From Chlorella sorokiniana (Eukaryota; Chlorophyta; Trebouxiophyceae; Chlorellales; Chlorellaceae), in contig CP084611.1 in NCBI GenBank assembly GCA_025917655.1, positions 496,001-560,000 on the forward strand: a DNA stretch of 64,000 bases. The letters are read 5' to 3'. Shown one piece after another: positions 3,201-42,509 of this stretch. Under the pieces are notes generated by a model. That model saw nothing but the letters and a program-made list of their open reading frames with translations, did not search any database and was not told where the DNA came from. A program made the position numbers and the translations under genes. Numbering within the stretch: position 1 is the first letter of the stretch; every line of letters begins with the position of its first letter.

Positions 3201-4632
3201 CGAGCTGGTGCGCTGCCTGCGCCGCTCACCCGTCGCCCTGGACCCCGACTGCCTGGCGGCGGTGCTGCAGCGGGCAGCCTTCCCCTTTTCCAGCTGGGCC
3301 ACCCCCAGCTGGCTGCGTGCGCAGACCACACGGCCGCCTCTGGAGGTCTTCCAGCCGCCGCAGCCCGCCGGCCAGCCTGGGTTGCAGCAGCAGGACGGCG
3401 CCGAGGGCGCGGCAGGCGGCGGCCTGCCGGGGGCGTGCCAGATGGCGAGGGCGGCGGGGAGATGCCGCCGTTTGTGCAGGCTGTGATGGAGCAAGTGCAG
3501 CAGCATGTCATGCAGCAGGTGCAGCAGCATCTGGGCGCGGCGCTGCCTGGCCAGCCCCAGTTTGTGGTCATGCACCACGGCCCGGGAGAGGGGGCCCCGC
3601 AGCAGCAGCGGCAGCGGCAGCCGCAGCCGCTGGGCGGGTGGCGGCCCGGCGGGGGCTGCTGCTGGCGCCGCCGCCGCCGCCGCCGCCGGCCTGCCCGGTG
3701 GCATCCAGATGCTGCAGCACCACCACGTGAATCAGGGAGACCAGCAGTTCCACGTCATGCAGGTGTGTGTGTGCGTGCGGTGCGCGGTGTTAGAGTTGCT
3801 GGCAAGGCGTGCAGCGCGTGCGTGTTTGGTCGGATTTTGCCAGGTCGCGGCTGCGGGGCGTGCCGTCCATGCCGGCGTTCTCATTGGCGCGTGCCTGGTG
3901 GCGGTCCTCCCACCCCGGTCCCCACTCCCCCTCACACACACGCAGTTTGCCATCGACTTGCCTCCCGGCATGGCTGTCGGCGGCGGGCCGCCCCGGGCTT
4001 TGCGCAGTTCATGCAGCACGTCATGGGGGCATGGCTGACCCCGGCCTCGTGTTTGGCATGGACGACGACGACGACGACGATGATGATGATGATGAAGAGG
4101 AGGAGGAGGAGGAGGGGAGCGATGATGACCAGGAGGCGGTCGTCTTCCCGGGGTCTGGGGAGACTTTGCCGAGGATGAGCTGGCGGGGATGACCTCCAGC
4201 GACGACGAGATGCTGGATGTGGAGGAGGAGTGGGAGGAGGCAGAAGCCCAAGACGAGGGTGCGCCGACGCCGCTGCCTGTGCGCCGGTGCTGCATGGCCA
4301 GGGAGGCCCTGGCCCGAGGTGGCCGCCAAGCTGGGGCCAGCGTGTGGCGGCAGGCGCAAGGCTGACTGCTGGCGCACTCCTCGCAACGTTTGCCGTGTCC
4401 CCGGCTTGCAGAAGGTGCCACGGCGGCCGGGCAGGCGCTTGCCGCGGACCCGCTGGCTTCCTCTCCGGCTGCAGCGGGTGCTCCTGCTGGCCAGCCCCCA
4501 TCCGCTTCCGACGGCGCAGGCACCAGCGGGCAGCGCGATGGCCAGGACCAGGAGGAGGCGCCATCGAGCAGCAAGCGCCCGGGGCCGGGCCGTTACGAGC
4601 TGCGGAGCAGCAAGCGCTCCAAACGAGAGTGA
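248..4632 (+). CDS. Ankyrin-repeat protein with glutamine-rich and acidic C-terminal regions
   Basis: The start ATG is at 248; exon 1 ends at 352 (35 codons, GTGAGT donor) and the next exon starts near 570. Later exons encode at least six ankyrin-type units: near 665-730 (GALHVAAAIGW), 900-1260 (TPLHIAAMCGR, TPLHFAAQ), 1380-1490 (TALHECF), 1680-1750 (LVEAGADVNA), 1950-2140 (LLHLAAMRGW) and 2345-2540 (QPLHVAVLND). Ankyrin repeats bind partner proteins; the partner here is unknown. After about 3470 the protein becomes Gln/Met-rich, then carries a run of Asp and Glu (4060-4120) and a basic end (SSKRSKRE) before the TGA at 4630-4632. The frame must shift by one base near 655, 2795, 3437, 3645 and 4155 to keep the conserved reading, so the sequence contains errors or the gene is decaying. 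Exon borders after exon 2 are approximate. Confidence 0.75.
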
Positions 4633-5265
4633 ACGAATGGATCAGCGAGCCAAGCGCTGCGTCATTTCGCTGCGTCGGCCGCCCAACCCAACCATATGTC
4701 CAGCACATCCAGGCCTACCCCTCGCCAACAGCTGCCGCGCAGGCATTGCTGCGCCCGCTGTTGGCTAGGGGCGATACGCATGCCACCCTCTAGCACTGTC
4801 CCTTGCGCATGTTTCATTCTGGCATTCAGCAGCCTGCGCCGCGCCACCTTGCCCATGTACTCCCAAACACTGCCCAGTGCCACAGTTATGATGCGTCCCT
4901 TCGAGCCCCCCAACTGCCCTTGACCTGTCCCATTACGCGTTCTGTACATTGCGCTCAGCTTCTCTCCCGGCTCTTCTTGCCTGCCTGCTGTGCGGTCTGT
5001 TTCCACCCTAGCCATATGGATCCTATCCTATGGATCCTATCTTCCTGCGTGCTTGCATGAATCATGCTGCCTTCACATGGCACACTGGTCTGGCAGCGGT
5101 AACAGGAATGCACCCCAGATGAGCAGGTGGAAGGAGGAATGCGGGAATGCGGGAATGACAAAGTGCATGTGACAATATTGGCCACTTGCCACGTTCACCC
5201 TGCATGTGGTGGCTGGACCAGACACCGAAGACTTGCGAGCAGCAGGGCACAGCATCTGGCCTGGC
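4633..5265. other. Convergent 3' region between two genes
   Basis: This 633-base stretch lies between the stops of the ankyrin gene (plus) and the tetraspanin-like gene (minus), so it should hold both 3' untranslated regions. It contains a 14-base unit repeated in tandem at 5015-5042 (tatggatcctatc core) and a short run of gcgggaat units near 5140-5160. I see no coding stretch with algal codon character. Confidence 0.5.
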
Positions 5266-31124: not shown

Positions 31125-34100
31125 GCCCCGCGGAGCTTGAGCAGCACCCAGACACCCAAGTGTTCCTGCAAGCGCTTGAGGCGCTAGATGCCCCGCCGAG
31201 CGGCGCCGCCGCCGAGCGGCCCGACCGCCAGGCGGCGCGGAGCCTCTTCTGCCGCGAGGTCAGCCCTGCTCCACGAGCCGCCCCCGGTTTGCGCATCATA
31301 TGAGGCCTTGATTGCTGAAGCGGCAGCCACTGCTGGCCCGGCGGCTGTGGTTCTCCTTGTGTGCGGCGCTCAAATCGTGAGCCGCCAAGCAACAGCACGC
31401 AGGGTTGTGCTGAAGGAAAGCTTGGCCGGCGGTGCAGGAGGAGCTGTTTGTGGCGCGCGCCCTGGCCGCCTGGATGTCATGGGCGGCATCGCCGACTACT
31501 CGGGCTCGCTGGTGCTGCAGCTGCCGCTGGCGGAGGCGTGCCACGTGGCGGTGCAGCGGCGGCGGGCGCGACGGGGCGCCCACCCTGCGCGTGGTCAGCT
31601 TCAACGACGGCGCAGCGAGCCGCGCCCCGCGTATGAAGCCCCGCTCGCGCAGCTGGTGGGCCGCGGCGGCAACGCTCAGCCTTTTCCTCTGAAACGTCTG
31701 TGACCTGGTGTGCCACCCTTCTGTGGCGCGGCGCTGCTGGGCAGCAAAAGCGATAAGCCGGGCGCACCCTTTGCCACCCGTTGGCCGCCGCCGCAGTTCC
31801 CAGGCGGCCAGCCCCTGGCGTACGCCGAAGCCCAGGCCCTGTTCAAGCGCGACCCCTCCCTCAGCTGGGCGGCGTACGTGGCGGGGGCGCTGCTGGTGCT
31901 GGCGCGCGAGAGAAGGGCGCGCTTTGAGCGCAGCCTGGCCATCCTCGTCTCCTCTGGTGCGCGTTACCCTGGTTCCATCATGCTGAGAACGGTGGCAGGG
32001 TGCAGCCGTCTTGCGTGTCCAATGCGTCATCTTCGCGGCTGCCAGCGATTCAGGGCAAGACTTGCGCCCGCGCTCAGCGCTCCTGCACACAGCCGCCCGC
32101 CCGTCCGCCCCTCTCTGGCTGCAGGCGTGCCGGAGGGGAAGGGTGTGAGCTCGTCGGCGGCGGTGGAGGTGGCGTCCATGGCGGCGCTGGTGGCGGCCCA
32201 TGGCCTGTCCTTGGACGGTCGCTCGCTCGCGCTGCTGTGCCAGAAGGTGGAAAACTGCGTTGTGGGTGAGTGAGGGGAGCGTCATTCGGAGTCAGTAGCG
32301 TGCTGCTGAGCAAGCTCTTCCCGCAGCTGTCTGCCCGCCAGGCGCCGAGCCCTTCCAGCTGACGGCAGCTGTTAGATCGATCCCCATCAGCGCTTGTGTG
32401 GTCGGGACCCAGCGCTGCGCTTGCGGCGGCCCTGGGCCCTGCCCTCAACGGCACAGCGCACATCGTCCCCGCCTGCTGTTTGCCTGTGTGCAGGCGCCCC
32501 CTGCGGCGTCATGGACCAGATGACGGCGGCTCTGGGCCGTGAGGGGCGGCTGCTGGCGCTGCGCTGCCAGCCCGCGGAGCTGCTGGGGGAGGCCGGCATC
32601 CCGCCCCACCTCCAGTTTGTGGGTATCGACTCGGGTGGGCGGCATGCTGTTAAGATCCGCTGTTTCTGCTCGCTTCACCGTCCCCAGAGCTTGCACCTTG
32701 GCCTGGGGGGCCTGCAACGCCTCTCTCGCCGCTGGAAGCCCAGCTGCAGCGGTGCGCAGCGCTGGGCCGCCCCTCAACCCCATGGAGCAGGGCCGTGCTG
32801 CCTGCTGAGCTCACCCCGCCCTGCCGCCGTCCGCTCCTGGCCCCAGGCAAGCAGCACAGCGTGGGCGGCTCCGACTACGGGCGGGTGCGGGTGGGGGCCT
32901 TCATGGGACTGCGCATCGCCAGCCAGCTGGCGGCGGAGGCGAGCGGCGGCGGCGGCGGCGGCGCCAACGGCGACGTGAAGCCTCTGGGTGCGAACCTGGG
33001 CAGCAACTTGCTGTTGGTTCCATTGCGGAGGCTGCCTCCAATGCCTGGGTATACATGCACCACGGCATCTGTGATCCCTTTGTGCAAGCAGGTGCCCCCA
33101 CTCCTCCTTCGCACAAATCACTCCACCACCAAGCCCCTGCCTGAAACCCACAGGCGGCGGCTACCTAGCCAACGTCCCCCTTCCGAGTTTGTGTGGCGCC
33201 ACGAGCAGCAGCTGCCGGAGAGCCTGACAGGGGCGGCCTTCCTGCAGCGCTACGGCAGCCACTGGGACGACGTGACACGCGTGCAGGCAGAAGAGGTGAG
33301 CAGCCGAGGGCGGCAACGGCGAGCGGCGCCTAGTTTTGGAGGATGCTACGCCCTGCCCGCGCGGCAGCCTGCCACCTGGCCATCCCCTGGCCCCGCTCAG
33401 GGAGCAGCCGCCAGGTTTCTCTCACGCCCAAAGCTGGCAAGCACGCATACAGATCCAGCACTGCGCCCTGACCCCGGCAGGTGTATGCCGTGCGCACGCC
33501 GGCGGGGCATCCTGTGCACGAGAACTTCCGAGTGCACGCCTTCCGCCAGGTGGGGCTGGGTGCTTTGTTTGCTGGGGATGGTTCTGGGGAGCTGCCATGG
33601 CCCGGGGGTAGGGGGCGGATGGGGGGAGGGGGATTTCAGCGGGAGGCAGCAGCTGTATGCGATCCAAGCTGCCGCCCTTGCTGCCCTGGTGGCGGACCTC
33701 CCATCACAAACTTGCCGTCTCTTTGGCGCGCCGCCGACTGCCCCATGCTGCTTCTTCATCTGCAGGTGCTTGCAGCCCCTGCCGCCGCCGAGCAGCTGGA
33801 AGTGCTTGGGGAGCTGATGCTGCAGTCGCACGCCAGCTACAGCCGTTGCGGGCTGGGCGCCGAGGGCACCGACCGCCTGGTGCAGCTGGTGGCGGAGGAG
33901 CGCGCGGCTGCGGTGGCTGCCGGGAGCAGCCCGCCGTGCACGGCGCCAAGATCACGGGCGGCGGGTCGGGAGGTGGGGGCAGCTGCCGGGGGCTGCTGAG
34001 ACGCAGCGTGGGCTCACCTGCTGTGTCGGCAACTTTGCCAGCTGGTGGGGTCGGAGATTCCTCTGCACGGCATGCCGGCAACCAGAATCCATCCATGCCG

Positions 34101-34459
34101 CAGCACACACTCGCTGCCGCTGCTGCCGCCGCCCCTCGCAGGCACTGTGTGCATCCTGGCGGCGGCTGGGCCGAGCGGCGACGCAGCAGTGCAGCGCATT
34201 GTGCAGGTGTGCAGGGCCCGCCTGCCCGCGCTTGCTGCCGCAGCCGTGGGCATGCTCCAGCTGCACCTTCCATCTCATGCCCACCTGGGTCAGAGACTGC
34301 CTTGTGCAGCCGCGTAAAAAACAACCTTTAACCTAGAGCTGTCCCGCTGTCCTGCAGCGGTACAGCCAGGAAACGCGGTACGAGCCAAAGGTCTTCCGCG
34401 GCTCCTCCTGCGGCGCCGCAGAATACGGTTTCCTGCGCCTCACCCCCGTTCCATCGTGA
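31125..34459 (+). CDS. ARA1: L-arabinokinase, GHMP kinase half only
   Basis: The supported exons are about 31125-31258, 31438-31956 (unresolved inside), 32125-32265, 32494-32634, 32847-32987, 33154-33295, 33481-33549, 33766-33972, 34142-34206 and 34358-34459. All three GHMP signatures are present: the sugar-binding [14 protein letters not shown], the ATP loop [15 protein letters not shown], and the C-terminal [13 protein letters not shown] (after a shift). The surrounding sequence ([53 protein letters not shown]) is typical of plant arabinokinase, which phosphorylates L-arabinose for sugar-nucleotide salvage. Plant enzymes have a glycosyltransferase-like N-terminal half of about 500 residues; the linker is visible here but there is no room for that half. 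At least five one-base shifts are needed (about 31462, 31570, 31625, 33178, 33931). Confidence 0.8.
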
Positions 34460-34710: not shown

Positions 34711-37700
34711 TCACCACGCGCGGCTCAGCTGCAGGGCCGCACCCTGCCGGGCGCCACCAGCCCCTGCCCCTGGTGCGCCGCTCCTCGGCCTCACGCTTGC
34801 GCGGCGTCGCAGCGAGGGCCGGCGGGCGTCTGTGTCGGCCCGCGCGGCGCCGGTGGCCGTCGGCTCACTCCCCCAGAACTGCCACCAGGGCCGCCGGCGG
34901 TACGCCGCCTCCTTGAGCAGGCGCGCCTCCTCCACCTCCCGCCTGCATCGCAGGGCGGCAGGTCGCATTTTGCATGGAACCCCTCGCTGCGAGCTCTCAT
35001 CCCCCAAGTTTTCAATGCGTCAACGTCGGCCTGGCTGCTTCTGTGGCGGATGCCGGGCTGCCCCGGGACCAGCTCAGGAGCCTGCCTCCGCCTCCCCACC
35101 AACCCCACCCCGTGCAGCCTCCCAGCCTGCCCACCAAGCCCAGCCACATCAGTTCTCACCTGCAGGCAGAGGCAGGGATGGAGCGGTACCAGTCAGACAG
35201 GTCGTACCGCTCAATCAGCCGGAACAGGCGCTCCAGCTGCACTGCCCTCCTGCCCAGGCAGGGGCAGCATTGAGCCGCGGCTGCAGACACCCGGCCAACT
35301 AGGATAGCGCCAAGGCCGGCAGCTTGCAGAGCACCGCCAGCAGCCCACCCACCTCATGCGCTGCTCCTCAGTCTCCAAGGCGCGGCTTGCCTTTTCGGCC
35401 ACCTGCCCAACGGCCTGCTTGGTCACGTCGACCACAGCGCCGCCCGTGCTTTTGGCCACAGCAGCGGCCTGCATACGTGTGTGACAGGACGGACGATGTG
35501 TCGTGCCATAATGAGGAGGCCACGGAGGCAGACTGTCATGTGCCAGGACGAACGATGTGTCGTGCCAAGAAGAGGAGGCCACAGAGGCAGACTGTCGATA
35601 TACCAACCCCCACGCAAGCAGTCGAGTGGTAAAAAGTGCACGGATCCAACTCGCCTCTTGTGCCTTGTCCCCCACATCGTTCACAGCGTCCTTAGCGTGC
35701 TCTACCACCTCGCCGACCTGCTAAGGGAGCACACACTGAGCTTCAGCAGACTGGAGCGCAGCTTGCAGCCGGTAGCGCGCCCATATGAGTCGGAGAAGCT
35801 CCACGCAGAGTGCCTGCCCAGGCCCAGTCCCCGGCGCGGCCCACCTTGTTCTTCACGCGGCGCACCGTCTCCCGCCGCTTCACCTCATCCTTGAGCACGC
35901 CGCCGCCGCCGGTCATCAGCCAGGCCGCTGCCACAAGCCCGCCTGCCAGCAGCAGCTTGCGGGAGATGCTGCCCAGGGCTCCCTGCACAAGGTGCAAGGA
36001 GGCAGCGAGTGGATGGCGTGCGGGGTTGCTGCACGGGGTTGAGCTGTGGGAACAAAGGTGCTGCCTTCAGAAAAAAAAAAAAAAAAAAAATCACTTACAA
36101 GGACGCCGCGGGGGCGCCCTCCCGCGCAGTGTGAGTGTCGGTACTCGTGGAAACGCTGCTCGGTACCGTCCTGCAGGCGGAGGGGCGGTGGGGGCACCAA
36201 ATAGTCAGGCTACTGATCAATCAGCCAGTTGCTGTCGGAGACTGCAGCCCCAGATATCACAGGTAGCAGCACAGCGCCAGCCAGCCGACCGCGGCCTGCC
36301 TTGAGCTCGCAGTATCCCGTCTCGAACAGCAGACGGCGCAGCACGGGCAAGTCTGCAGACAGGGGCATGATGGCGACAGGTCGCAACTCTTGCTTGTGCA
36401 CAACTGGGCTCACTTGTGAGTGTCAATGGTGAGAGTCGTTACGCCGACTGCTGGCACGCCCCCACCCACTCCCTACACAAAACACACACACAGCACAGAC
36501 ACAGCACAGACACACATCCGACCTCCTCCTGTTAAAGAGCCAGCAGGTTTGGTTGGTGGCAAGCGAGCAGCGCGCACCCGAGTGCTGAGTCAGCATGGCC
36601 TCCACCGAGCCCCAGGGGTACTTGCGCACAGGCCAGAACCTGCACAGGGGCAGGCGGGGTGGTCAGCTTGGCCACGAGTTTGCTGGTGATGCAGCGGCCG
36701 TGCGTGCCAGGAGCAGGCGCCCTTCGCTGCAGCACTCCACCGCGCGGAGCGGGTCTGATTGGTGTCATGGCTCAGCAACCGTTGGCAGGAGGCAGGAAGC
36801 CTCTGCTCTGTGGCAGCCTTTCAGGGTCGGATTGTGGGAGCTGCCCGGCAGCTGCTGCCGGCAGCAGCCCGCCGCGCGCCTGCCCACCTTCCAACCTCCA
36901 GGTCCATAGTGTTGGAGCAGATGACGGCAAAGGGCGGGCCGTGGCGCGCGCCCGCCTCCTCCAGCGCATCGCGCGAGAAGGGAGAGCGCACGCCGCCGCC
37001 CCGCAGCGCCTCCCGCACTCGATGGCGGAACTCCTGCGGCGGTCATAACGATACTCGAAAAACTTCAGAGCTGAATGTCAAAGTTGGGCAATCAGCAAGA
37101 TTGTGGTGCAATCAGGGAGGCCAGTAGGCACGCCTGCACAGACGCTGTTGACACCCTAATCATGCAGTAGGAAGCCCAGCGGCAGCCGCATCGCTGCTGC
37201 AGCGGCATAATGAAAATGCCTGCAGCATTAGCATCAGCAGCGCTCGCTCCCCCAGCCTCCAGCCACCTTGAGCTCCTCGGCGGTCATGGTGTCTGCCTTG
37301 GCCAGCACCGGCACTACAGGCACTACAGCCGCCAGCTCACGCATGAAGGCCAGGTCGATCTGCAGGTTGGGGCAGGAGGCAGCAAAGCAGAGAATTATGT
37401 GACCTGCAGGGTGAAACAGTCATAGAATGCTCTGAAATCTTTGAGCTGCCGTTTGTGCTCAAGCGCCCAATTAACCTGCCCTTGCTCTTGCCAGGGCTGA
37501 GCAGTACCTGAAACTTCACACCAACTCACTACCGCAACAAACTTTTGTGTGCAGACATGCACGCGGCAGGCTGAGGTGGCAACAACCCCACCCACCTGCC
37601 GCATGCGGTGCGGGGGGATGAAGTAGAGGCAGACGTCTACCCGAGTGTCGCGGATGGCATGCATGGCCGCCTTGCGGTCTGGATCCTGCTCCTGCGGCAA

Positions 37701-39731
37701 AGAAGGGATCAGACAGAGAGGATTGCCCTTTGAAAAACAGCAGGTCGTTCAATGGCCGCAAGAAAAGCTTGGGCACAGGCCAAGGAGGAGGGGAGTGCGA
37801 GCATGCGACGTTGCTGCTCGACCCCAGCTTCAGGCTGGTTGGGGACTTTTTATCAGGCAGCAGGGGGCTGTGCGGTGGTCGGCAAACCTAAGCCTGAACA
37901 CCAGTAGCTGTTCGGCCCACAAATTCGGCCCACCTGCTCTAGGTACGCGCAGCTGCAGTCCTGCACATAATTCAGGATCACGCGGCGGTCGGTCTCGAGG
38001 TCCAGGGAGTCGCCGTAGCCTGTCGATCAGGCGCAAAGTAAACGGCGGCACAGGCATGAAACGTGGCAAAAACTGTGAAAGAGGGAATGCATGTGAAGAA
38101 ACGGCAGCACAGCAGACTGATGAGGGGCAGAGAGGCGTCGCAACACGACCCACCAGGCGTGTCCTGCAGAGGGGACCGCAGGGAAGCAGCAAAGCTTACG
38201 CCGTGCAGTGCAGATGCCCGGCAGGCCGGCTGCTTGGAAGACGCTGCATCGCCGTGACCAGCCTTGACATCGGCGGCCATGCGCCAGCCCCTGGGAACCT
38301 AAGCATGGCCGCCAGTGCAGGCTCCTGGCACCTTGAGCGCACCCCGCTTGGCAGCCGGCGCTGCCGCACAGTGCAGCAGGCTCAGCGCGGGCAGCCCCGC
38401 TGTCCCGGGGCTCACCTGCACGAGGTAATGATAGTACACCTTGTTCTCGCCGTCCTGCAGCACCACCTCGGTGCACAGCGCCTCCGGGCGGTCGCAGAAG
38501 ATCTGCACCAGGGGGTGGCTCGCAGGCAAGCCTTCTGACGGGCGGGGCACACAACAGGCGGCAGCTTGAGCTGGGATGCGAGCCTGCCTTGCCGCAGGAT
38601 CACTGCAGCCACGTGGCAGCAGGTGGCAGGCGAGCAAGGCGATGCGGCCGGTGGATAGCCCACCTGCTGAGCGTGGGGCACTGAGGCGTCGTTGACGGGG
38701 AACGAGGCGTCCCGGGCGTACGCGGCAAACAGGTTGCGCACGAAGGTGGTTTTTCCCAAGCCAGACTCTCCCACCAGCAGTATCTTCATGTACCTGCATT
38801 GTAGAAGGCAGAGCCGGGAAAGACAGTGTGGATCTGACGAGCGAGATGGAATGGAGGCGCGTGTGGGGGTGTCATGGTCAAGTGTCGGGAACGGCTACCG
38901 CTGTTTGTCATGTGGCATCTCCGCTTTTAGAGGTCATGCAACACAAAGGGGTCTAGCGCTAGTGTTCATGGCAGCGCTAGTCCATGCATGAGTCCATGCA
39001 TGCTACCTCAGCAATGCAGGCTATAGCCAGGTGCTGCCGCTGCCGCCTGCGCGCCCGCGCCCCACCACCACACACACACACACACAGCTCACTTGTGAGT
39101 CCAGTGGGGCTTGATGCGCGGCAGGCCTGCAAAGGCGTTGCGCAGGTCCAGCTCTCGCACCTCCGTCAGGGACTCGCGCTTGGAGCGGGCAGAGCCCTCC
39201 ACCACAGCGGTGGCCTGCTGCGAGTGCAGCGCCCGCGGTGGGGTTGCCGGCGCCGCGGCGGCATCGGCAGCAGGCGGCAACTGCGGGCTCATGCCCAAGG
39301 ATGGCCCAGAGTTAGGGCCTTCCAGCTGGTATGGGCTGCAACATGGATGTGTTTAAAGCATCTGTCAGCAAGTCAGCCAGTCCTGGTCAGCGGCGCCCGC
39401 TCAGCGGCTTCTGAACACGCGGCGTGGCTGAGGGCATTCACCTCGCTGGAGAGCCGCTGTCATCTGCTGGCTGCTGCTTGCTGCTCCGGCTTGAGGGCGC
39501 CCACACTTTCATTTCCGGCTTTCTGGCACTATGCCCCTGGCGATCATGCTCTGGGTAGCTTCCGCCATCATACTCCTCCATCTTGCGGCCCTGGTGGCCG
39601 TTTAGGCCCTCGTAGTCTGTAGAAGAGTCGCGCACGCTGGCCGTGTGCGGCTGCGGGGACGCAGAATCGCTCAGCAGCTCCGCTGCCTCGCTCCTAGTGG
39701 CGTTGAGCAGCACTGTTGTGCTCTCAGCCAT
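34711..39731 (-). CDS. SEP1: Septin GTPase with a C-terminal membrane segment and LEA-like helical tail
   Basis: There are seventeen exons: 39731-39442, 39335-39093, 38793-38664, 38502-38416, 38163-38154, 38019-37934, 37691-37596, 37359-37267, 37033-36888, 36639-36578, 36352-36300, 36170-36099, 35982-35845, 35717-35655, 35468-35353, 35249-35160 and 34942-34711. Every phase matches, giving 668 residues. The G domain shows the P-loop GESGLGKTT (about 186-194), DTPGYGD (251-257) and AKAD (334-337), then the septin region (DLPVLRRLLFETGYCELK, HEYR). Septins form membrane-bound filaments at division sites and cell cortex. Unusually, a hydrophobic segment (LLLAGGLVAAAWLM, about 466-479) follows. 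After it comes an Ala/Lys/Glu helical tail (EHAKDAVNDVGDKAQE, AVGQVAEKASRALETEEQ) and a WWQFWG motif near 611-616. Introns 36299-36171 and 35654-35469 start with GC. An alternative stop in intron 36299-36171 (at 36210) would give a shorter protein lacking the tail. Confidence 0.9.
38154..38163 (-). other. 10-nt micro-exon of the septin gene coding DTPG
   Basis: The ten bases gacacgcctg lie between a CTCTGCAG acceptor and a GTGGGT donor. They join exon 4 (phase 0) to exon 6 (starting GCTACGGC) to give Asp-Thr-Pro-Gly-Tyr-Gly-Asp. No other source of the G3 motif exists between the flanking exons, and leaving it out breaks the frame. Confidence 0.85.
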
Positions 39732-39999: not shown

Positions 40000-42509
40000 A
40001 TGCAGGATGGGTCGCTGAGCGAGGAGGAAGGCAGCAATGGCTGCTGCTTGAGCCCCGCTGGTCAGTCCCGGCTTGCAGCGCTGGTAGCGGGTTGCAAGGG
40101 TGCACGGTTGACCCAAAGCTGAAACTGTGCTGCCACATCGATGTCTTTCCCGCACCTGTGATCACCAGTGTATGTTTCTCCTGGCGTTGGAGAGCATGGA
40201 GGCTGTGCGAAGCTGTTTATATTCAACCTTGCGCGCACAGTGCGCGATGCCGACCTCGAGCCGCTCTTCGCTCAGTTTGACCCGGTCTATGCCTTGGTGG
40301 CTGTGGGCAAGAAAGGTGGCCTGATGAGACCTGCCTGTTTCGAGCACCGTCGAGGCCATGCGCCATGAGGCGTGCGTTTGCACTGCTGCAGGCACCAGTC
40401 GCAGGTTTGGCTTTGCCAAGTTTCACACCCAGGAGGCGGCGCAGGCAGCGCTTGACGCCCTGCGCGGGACACTCCTGCACGGCAAGGAGATGGACTTGAA
40501 GTTTGCTGTGGCCGACGATCCAGATCCGGGCAATGGCGTGCTGGCCAAGAGCCGTGCTAAGATGCGGGTGTGTGGGTATTGCCTGCAGTGCTGTGCTGCG
40601 CGTCTTTTATGTGATTGGTGGGCGGGTGCAGTTCAACTGCACAGCATCCGTTTACCCCTTGCCTGCAGGCTTCTGCTGTCAACGATATGACAAGATTAGC
40701 CGCTCTGCCACCACCCACCGATGGCACGCGGACAGATGCTTCAGCAGAACAGCCGCAGTATTGCACGCCCACCCTGCCAGGTTGGCCTGCCAGGCCATCC
40801 GTTCCGCCTTACTGCATGCAAGCGCAGACAGCACAATCGCTTGTCATGCATGCCTCCCTGCCGCTGCCTTCGCCAGTGACAGCACCCAACAGTCTGCCAG
40901 CACCCAGCATGGCTGCCCAATTCATGAAGGGGTATGCTGTTCCAGCAGCGATGCCCGATTACCAGCGACCGAGCCCCAGCTTGCGTGGAGCTCCAGCTGC
41001 GGCTCCACCTTTCCACCAGCATGAACCGCTGCCTCTACAGCACATGCTGGTAGTTGCTGGCATGCCAGGTAGGTCAGGCAAGAACATGCTGCCCCTGCAC
41101 CACGAGATGTTCACAGGGTTGCGCACCGTCCTGCCTAGTATGCAGGCCTGCACCATGCGTCCATCACGCAGCTGGTGTGGAGCTTCCAGCCTCTCAGCAT
41201 CAGCACAGGCATCGACCTGGCTGGCTATGAACAGGTGGGGCTGAAGCATTCTAGTTGGCTAGCGGCCCATCCAAGTGATATGCCTGTTGAAGGTAGTGAT
41301 TGAGCAACCGCGTTCCATTTGCAGACGTCTGTGGTGTTTGCGGAGCTGCAGCAGGCGCAAGCAGCGCAGGATGCCATCCGGCGGTGCGCTGCAGAGGCAG
41401 GCTCAGGGCTTGTCACCAGCATCGTGACAATCCCTCTTCAGCACCCCAGGCCGCGGTCAGCGCTTCCCGCTATGGAAGCGCAGGCTGCTTACGCAACACT
41501 GATGCCTGCTGGAATGCAGCCTCCAGCGCCCAAGGCCACCCTGCCAGGCCTGCCACCGCTGTCACAGGCACAGCACTGTCACGCGGGGAAGCGCTTGCTG
41601 CTGGTCAGTTGCCGCCGCCCACAGTGCAGCAGCAGCGTGAGGCTGTCACCATGCGGCCCCTGTATGCGGGACCTCGCCCCCTCACATCGTAAGCTGATGC
41701 TGCCAGACTGACTCGGGCATCACATGCAATACAAACCTGGCCAACTTTGAAGCTTGCCACCAAACTCTCAATTTTCTGCTCTGTTTGCAGAGGCCTCCTG
41801 GCTACCCCTACATCTGGCCGCCCCCGCCCAACCAGTGGCCCCCACAATCTGACCCTGTGGCAGGGCCCCCTGGTCCTCCCGCTGCCTTCCCATCGCCACC
41901 TTTCCAGCATCTGAGCGGGCAGGAGCCTGATTTGGCAACAGAAGTTCATCACACACAGCAACAGCGCGCTGCCCCACCACGCTATGCTCACCTGGGCTGC
42001 GCTCTGCCAGAGGCACTTGAGGCTCCAGCCTCCCGAGACGTCTGAACCCAGCCGCCGCCCCGTTCATGCCCACAAACCTCGGTCATGCCGCTGCAGCAGC
42101 CGCCGCTGCTCCTCGGCACATCACCGCCCGCCTGCCTGCCGGACGTCGGCACCGACAGTAGCAATGCCACCCGTGGTGAGCTGGCTGGTTCAAATTATGC
42201 GTTGTGCTTGAATAGGATGCATTTCATGTGTCCAGCGCTAGTCTTTTGCCCTGCCCTCTGCCAGTGCAGATACACGCCACCTTCAGCGGAGTTGTGGCTG
42301 CTTTAGCAGACCGCCCCCACTTGCCATCACAGGAGCGGCTGCACCAGGAGGCCGCGCCCACCGGCGCTGCACCGCTGGTGGGGGCTGGATCGGCGGATTA
42401 TGTTTCCGGGACAGAAGGTGCGGAGGACATCCTGTGGGTCGTGCTCTCTGAGATTGGCCGTCACCCTTGCGCTGCTGCTGAGGGGCTGCAGCACGAATGC
42501 CGCAGATGA
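40000..42509 (+). CDS. RNA-binding protein with one clear RRM and a Pro/Gln/Met-rich C-terminus
   Basis: Exons with matching phases are 40000-40060, 40169-40315, 40392-40567, 40669-41068 and 41146-41234; another starts at 41325. The RRM spans exons 2 and 3: RNP2 is LFIFNL (in AKLFIFNLARTV) and RNP1 is RRFGFAKF. A second RRM-like half (QLVWSFQPLSISTGIDLAG, then TSVVFAELQQAQAAQDAI) lies in exons 5 and 6, separated by a long disordered Pro/Met/Gln-rich linker. RRM proteins of this build act in mRNA processing or translation control, but the targets are unknown. A one-base shift is needed near 41575. Exons after 41790 are open (PPGYPYIWPPPPNQWPP), but the true stop is unsure; 42509 is the last stop of the natural reading and would overlap the next gene's start. 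Confidence 0.7.

Follow-up and report, generated by a model that had tools for sequence, protein, structure and literature searches.

A single septin gene of Chlorella sorokiniana whose C-terminal extension may serve as a membrane anchor

Does the septin encoded at this locus end with its GTPase core, or does it continue into a C-terminal extension by which it could be anchored in a membrane? The question was raised by a sequence-only reading of the window, i.e., of the whole 64,000-nucleotide stretch of DNA analyzed here (~63% G+C), which described a septin with a membrane segment and an LEA-like tail. We examined the gene model, the tail and the possible modes of membrane attachment, and used for genome-wide comparisons the organism's own genome of 38.8 Mb in 15 contigs.

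The septin gene and its GTPase core

The septin gene is real. Our model comprises 17 exons on the minus strand, which start with the ATG at 39731, close with a TGA stop whose last base is 34711, and encode a protein of 668 aa. Its parts, in window positions, are as follows.

34711..39731, minus strand: whole septin gene (model), 17 exons, 668 aa, with the Pfam Septin match at aa 180-445 and the 5irr match at aa 163-444
39093..39731, minus strand: exons 1-2 (39731-39442 and 39335-39093), N-terminal extension, aa 1-178
36300..38793, minus strand: exons 3-11, septin GTPase core with the P-loop, DTPG, AKAD, arginine finger R311 and YPWG
38793-38664 and 37691-37596, minus strand: exons 3 and 7, to which the R311 and Ala219 observation refers
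36352-36300, minus strand: exon 11, septin core
36171..36299, minus strand: intron 11, GC-AG, across which helix alpha-6 is ungapped vs. 5irr
36099..36170, minus strand: exon 12, end of alpha-6 (DGTEQRFHEYR) and first tail residues, aa 433-456; weak coding score, never whole in the splice decoder
35845..35982, minus strand: exon 13, hydrophobic run aa 466-486 and start of a basic helix, aa 457-502
35655..35717, minus strand: exon 14, amphipathic helix, aa 503-523; followed by the GC-AG intron 14 and removable in frame
35353..35468, minus strand: exon 15, amphipathic Ala/Val-rich stretch, aa 524-562
35160..35249, minus strand: exon 16, helical stretch RAVQLERLFRLIERYDLSDWYR, aa 562-592
34711..34942, minus strand: exon 17, WWQFWG (aa 611-616), Arg-rich low-complexity end and stop TGA; weak coding score (-0.148)

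The introns are 103-299 bases long; 14 of them are of the GT-AG type and two are GC-AG, with GC donors after exon 11 (36300, GCAGGC) and after exon 14 (35655, GCGAGT). Two further peculiarities of the gene were observed. A 10-base micro-exon (38163-38154), flanked by introns of 252 and 134 bases, codes for most of the G3 motif (DTPG), and intron 14 contains a 59-base tandem duplication (35480-35596; 2.0 copies, 89% matches).

The Pfam Septin family (PF00735) was recognized in residues 180-445 with E = 8.7e-49 and a score of 166.7 bits vs. a cut-off of 26.2. The best PDB match was 5irr ('Septin-like protein'; 203.8 bits, residues 163-444), which we take to be the septin of Chlamydomonas reinhardtii, and the next among the 44 matches listed scored 125.9 bits. 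In a three-way alignment the core was 44% identical to 5irr and 38% identical to SEPT3, and the motifs GESGLGKT (P-loop, aa 186-193), DTPG (aa 251-254), AKAD (aa 334-337) and YPWG (aa 401-404), which represent G1, G3, G4 and part of the septin-unique element, were aligned with those of both proteins. The N-terminal extension upstream of aa 163 gave no family match.

This is the only septin found in the genome by two own-genome searches. The search with Pfam Septin returned one match, located within the septin gene at 34711..39731, and among the 10 matches obtained with the core protein nine lay in the same gene and the tenth, with E = 0.161, in another part of the genome. Searches for relatives of the core in viral contigs yielded none among 27 pattern matches with the single protein and none among 77 with the three-sequence alignment. 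In prokaryote genomes, one of the 202 pattern matches, located in a Bacteroidetes MAG (L049), was 25% identical to the core over a stretch (3664-3930) that belongs to a GTPase-like ORF of 547 aa at 3496-5139, presumably AIG1-like, with the motifs GATGAGKTT and DTPGFGD.

With regard to the neighboring genes, an RRM gene (40162-40687, plus strand) stands head-to-head with the septin gene; RRM_1 was detected with E = 8.5e-7 in 40328-40687 and with E = 0.0066, below the cut-off, in 40162-40365. On the other side, the plus-strand region 33472-34314, which converges on the septin gene, presumably encodes (judged by eye) a GHMP/arabinokinase-like C-terminal end, and three stretches of it had no Pfam match at E<=0.01.

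The hydrophobic run, the amphipathic tail and possible membrane attachment

As the Pfam Septin match extends to residue 445 and that of 5irr to residue 444, the extra tail corresponds to residues 446-668, i.e., 223 residues. An addition of about 215 residues after the core had been proposed; the tail does exist, but the septin core turned out to include exon 11 and to reach halfway into exon 12.

The most conspicuous element of the tail is a 21-residue run free of D, E, K, R, H, Q, N and P (residues 466-486, LLLAGGLVAAAWLMTGGGGVL). The next-longest such run in the protein has 10 residues, and runs of at least 21 were seen in only 32 of 20000 shuffled tails. The segment also contains the best GES-20 window of the protein (mean of 1.91). 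Its best Kyte-Doolittle mean over 19 residues is 1.51, against a customary threshold of 1.6; 476 of 5000 shuffles attained this value, and a core segment at 315 exceeds it (1.70). With windows of 15 and 21 residues the Kyte-Doolittle values were matched by 196 and 74 of 5000 shuffles, respectively. The sum on a crude Hessa central-position scale was unfavorable (+2.54) and the octanol mean amounted to 0.05-0.15 per residue (windows 17, 19, and 21). Thus, of the hydrophobic membrane segment seen earlier, the rare uncharged run stands, yet its hydrophobicity is marginal to moderate and membrane spanning is putative. The 16 residues before position 466 carry four positive and no negative charges, and the 16 after position 486 eight positive and three negative ones. 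As both flanks are basic, no clear orientation follows from the positive-inside rule.

Directly behind the run lies an Ala/Lys/Glu-rich amphipathic stretch, as had been noticed from the letters alone. Residues 486-560 showed the periodicity of an amphipathic helix, with a peak at 100 degrees (P = 0.019, shuffles); the signal was stronger for residues 486-530 (peak at 103.5 degrees, P = 0.0075) and weaker for residues 520-560 (P = 0.07). The peak was at 120.5 degrees for residues 560-592 and at 90 degrees for 486-592 overall, and no helical periodicity was found in residues 592-625 (P = 0.86). Hydrophobic autocorrelation over 486-592 was positive at lags 3, 4, 7, 11, 18, 21, and 29. Helices built of 11-residue repeats, with a periodicity of 98.2 degrees, are a synuclein-like feature; such a helix was rejected here, its signal being below that of 100 degrees for residues 486-560. 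The WWQFWG motif, also described before, is present at residues 611-616.

Taken as a whole, we consider it rather probable that this is a single septin of the Chlamydomonas (Group 6A) type and that its C-terminal extension represents a putative membrane anchor. In such a protein, the core would bind GTP, pair across the G-interface and assemble on the cytosolic face of a membrane, into which the hydrophobic run would insert; the basic helix behind the run may provide a hold on the surface or contribute to the choice of membrane. A candidate target is the division site, by the Nannochloris precedent described in the pertinent passages of Delic et al. (2024; PMC11238149); another, given the moderate hydrophobicity and the basic flank, is the outer membrane of plastids or mitochondria. 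As to the mode of insertion, the chances that residues 466-486 form a true single-pass span seem evenly balanced. That the run enters the membrane only shallowly, in-plane or re-entrant, and leaves the tail on the cytosolic side is tentatively entertained as a lesser possibility, and we doubt that the protein does not insert at all. Anchorage in the membrane, as first suggested, is therefore plausible and fits the green-algal septins in print, although the moderate hydrophobicity and the two basic flanks weaken it. The accompanying idea of a tail able to coat the membrane is in conflict with simple spanning, since a single crossing would place the tail opposite to the face on which the septin core lies and make it unable to coat that face; it becomes feasible if the run lies in-plane.

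The latter arrangement is the most serious alternative, which we rate as possible but below an even chance. Here, the run and the long amphipathic helix would both lie in-plane in a membrane, or on a lipid droplet, and the whole tail would be cytosolic and able to coat the surface. The marginal hydrophobicity, the basic residues on both flanks and the long amphipathic stretch straight after the run all speak for such peripheral binding, as does the amphipathic helix given for 68% of Group 6A septins in the part of Delic et al. on this group (PMC11238149). On the other hand, 21 residues lacking any charged or strongly polar side chain make a long in-plane helix, and such a run is rare by chance.

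An outer-membrane protein resembling Toc34 seems unlikely. According to this explanation, a septin-related GTPase would be held in the outer membrane of plastids or mitochondria by a moderately hydrophobic segment with a basic C-terminal flank. Outer-membrane anchors are characterized in the relevant portion of PMC4010795 by just this combination, and an octanol mean <0.4 together with eight K/R among the 16 residues that follow the run agrees with the rule given there. Yet, that rule was devised for N-terminal signal anchors, whereas here 465 residues precede the segment and ~180 follow it. Septins of ciliates are reported at mitochondria, but that of Nannochloris at the division site (both from passages of PMC11238149). 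The likeness to Toc34/Toc159 of the chloroplast envelope, listed as 'paraseptin' GTPases in the same source, consists in a C-terminal membrane segment that comes after a GTPase, as far as the sections of PMC11238149 and PMC4010795 on these proteins describe it; in contrast to them, the protein studied here has a septin domain, no Toc/AIG1 family among its Pfam matches and a long extension after the segment.

Coding support and family matches of the tail exons

Membrane attachment of this kind presupposes the 3' part of the model. The septin might instead stop near 36210, or the tail exons might derive from another transcript; we regard either as quite improbable. Seven exons had been described as joining in perfect phase after the core. 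They do join in frame to the TGA at 34711, but only if introns 11 and 14 are of the GC-AG type. For intron 11 this is supported by homology: at the junction CELK|DGTEQRFHEYR helix alpha-6 is continuous, without any gap vs. 5irr, and vs. SEPT3 a single residue is missing, the same one that is absent in 5irr. The GC-AG reading of intron 14 is supported by frame and coding score; if exon 14 were skipped, the frame would be preserved all the same and the protein would be shorter by 21 residues. Termination at the stop at 36210 is unlikely because alpha-6 would be shortened and the end of the septin core lost.

Coding potential was scored with a codon table derived from 27 conserved segments of the own genome (2229 codons). 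The chosen frame outscored the other five in every one of exons 11-17, with weak scores for exon 12 (-0.074) and exon 17. Exons 13-17 jointly reached 0.172 bits per codon, a value attained by 0 of 5000 length-matched mock chains taken from the window and, when the best frame of each mock exon was allowed, again by 0 of 5000. This control is conservative, as the window contains other coding sequence. We also applied a splice decoder that uses no homology, only codon scores and splice-site weights from ten core introns, at 12 settings. Exon 13 was recovered whole in 10 and in part in two of the 12 settings; exon 14 whole in five, in part in one and not at all in six; exon 15 whole in six and by its end only in the other six. 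All 12 settings returned exon 16 together with the beginning of exon 17, which was ended early each time, and exon 12 was skipped in 11 settings and represented by its end only in one. The decoder chose the GC donor at 36300 in 9/12 settings (GC penalties 4 to 8) and a GT at 36290 in 3/12 (penalty 10). Hence, it supports the tail without fully reproducing the 17-exon model.

A wrong 3' model would gain from the two GC-AG introns that ours requires, from the weak scores of exons 12 and 17 and from the failure of the decoder to return exon 12 whole. It would also gain from the sole minus-strand TGTAA between 40000 and 33800, which sits at the exon 12 donor (36099). TGTAA is the poly(A) signal of green algae; as such a signal for the septin gene it was set aside as uninformative. 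Against a wrong model stand the ungapped alpha-6 through intron 11 vs. 5irr and the coding character and phase of exons 13-17. Furthermore, methionines occur after the core only at 479 and 561, and the tail introns of 103-217 bases leave little room for a promoter.

Family searches with the tail gave only weak matches. The LEA likeness attributed to it did not hold up beyond composition: no LEA family was present among the Pfam matches listed to E = 10, a range in which the HMMER filters remove most matches above ~0.1. Pfam Senescence (PF06911) matched the 226-aa tail with E = 0.0039 and its first 130 aa with E = 0.0022, at scores of 17.6 and 18.4 bits vs. a cut-off of 24.6. Other matches were to ISG65-75 (0.019), MCPVI and YtxH in Pfam and to the Ag473 lipoprotein (0.0035), DbpA and PRK03670 in NCBIfam, and none attained its cut-off. 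The variety of these families suggests a generic amphipathic helix. Among eight shuffled tails, none matched Senescence and one matched any family. A fusion of a septin with a diverged lipid-binding domain of the Senescence (spartin/ERD7-type) family as its tail, as the E-values and the shuffles would allow, is very improbable in view of the scores below cut-off, the comparable matches to unrelated families, the absence of Senescence from the whole-protein matches and a Senescence match above the cut-off elsewhere in the genome. A comparison of the tail with PDB gave a single match (E = 0.31), which was taken as chance, and a search for its relatives in the own genome gave seven matches, six of them the tail itself and one at E = 0.887.

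Algal septins and the GTPase site

The idea of a membrane segment in green-algal septins is already in print. In the passages of Delic et al. (2024; PMC11238149) concerned with Group 6A, an R-finger is listed for 100%, an amphipathic helix for 68%, a coiled coil for 16% and a TM domain for 44% of the septins. The same paper, in the parts available, locates the TM domains of non-opisthokont septins, described as putative, in the C-terminal extension, mentions an amphipathic helix and a possible TM domain in the Chlamydomonas septin and refers to Wloga 2008, Nishihama 2011 and Perry 2023 as having reported earlier or in parallel. A search of the literature since 2010 for septin, transmembrane domain, C-terminal extension and algae gave nothing beyond PMC11238149, and the phrase 'transmembrane septin' was not found in the literature since 2020. 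Compared by description with the Group 6A/7 algal septins to which passages of that paper assign a putative TM domain, the Chlorella protein is alike in having a hydrophobic segment after the GTPase domain and an amphipathic helix. A single septin gene is found in most, not all, members of Group 6A, as it is here by our own-genome searches. The Chlorella septin and 5irr, a structure of the core only, are alike in their cores, the arginine finger and the single gene; they seem to differ in the switch-I threonine.

The arginine finger is kept as R311 (PPHRMRQIDL vs. IPPHRLRPIDL in 5irr, in register), where SEPT3 has HS. The position of the switch-I threonine aligns to Ala219, and the only threonines in 194-250 are at 194 and 232. 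Of the 42 open GT/GC junctions by which exon 3 could alternatively be joined to exon 4, 12 added a threonine, each with at least 17 extra residues. The catalytic threonine thus seems to be missing, with alanine in its place; as the loop aligns with gaps, this is an indication and not a proof. The switch-I threonine is essential for hydrolysis according to the pertinent passage of PMC8640212. In the sections of Delic et al. on GTPase residues (PMC11238149), it is present in three named Group 6A species, and the order of loss proposed there is R-finger first and threonine later. A septin with an R-finger and apparently without the threonine would represent the reverse of this order.

Together, these features allow a bolder picture, which we regard as decidedly unlikely: a single septin with its R-finger kept and its threonine lost, perhaps held as a GTP-bound stable G-dimer, its C-terminal segment being a permanent membrane anchor that places the amphipathic tail on the opposite side. 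If true, it would be a constitutive integral-membrane septin scaffold, and the order of loss would be opposite to the printed proposal. A lost switch-I threonine next to a retained arginine finger would also probe the working of the finger. Returning to the putative anchor, the gene described here adds one more mapped single-septin gene to the algal septins with a predicted C-terminal membrane segment and offers an alga with one septin in which the anchor could be removed without redundancy.
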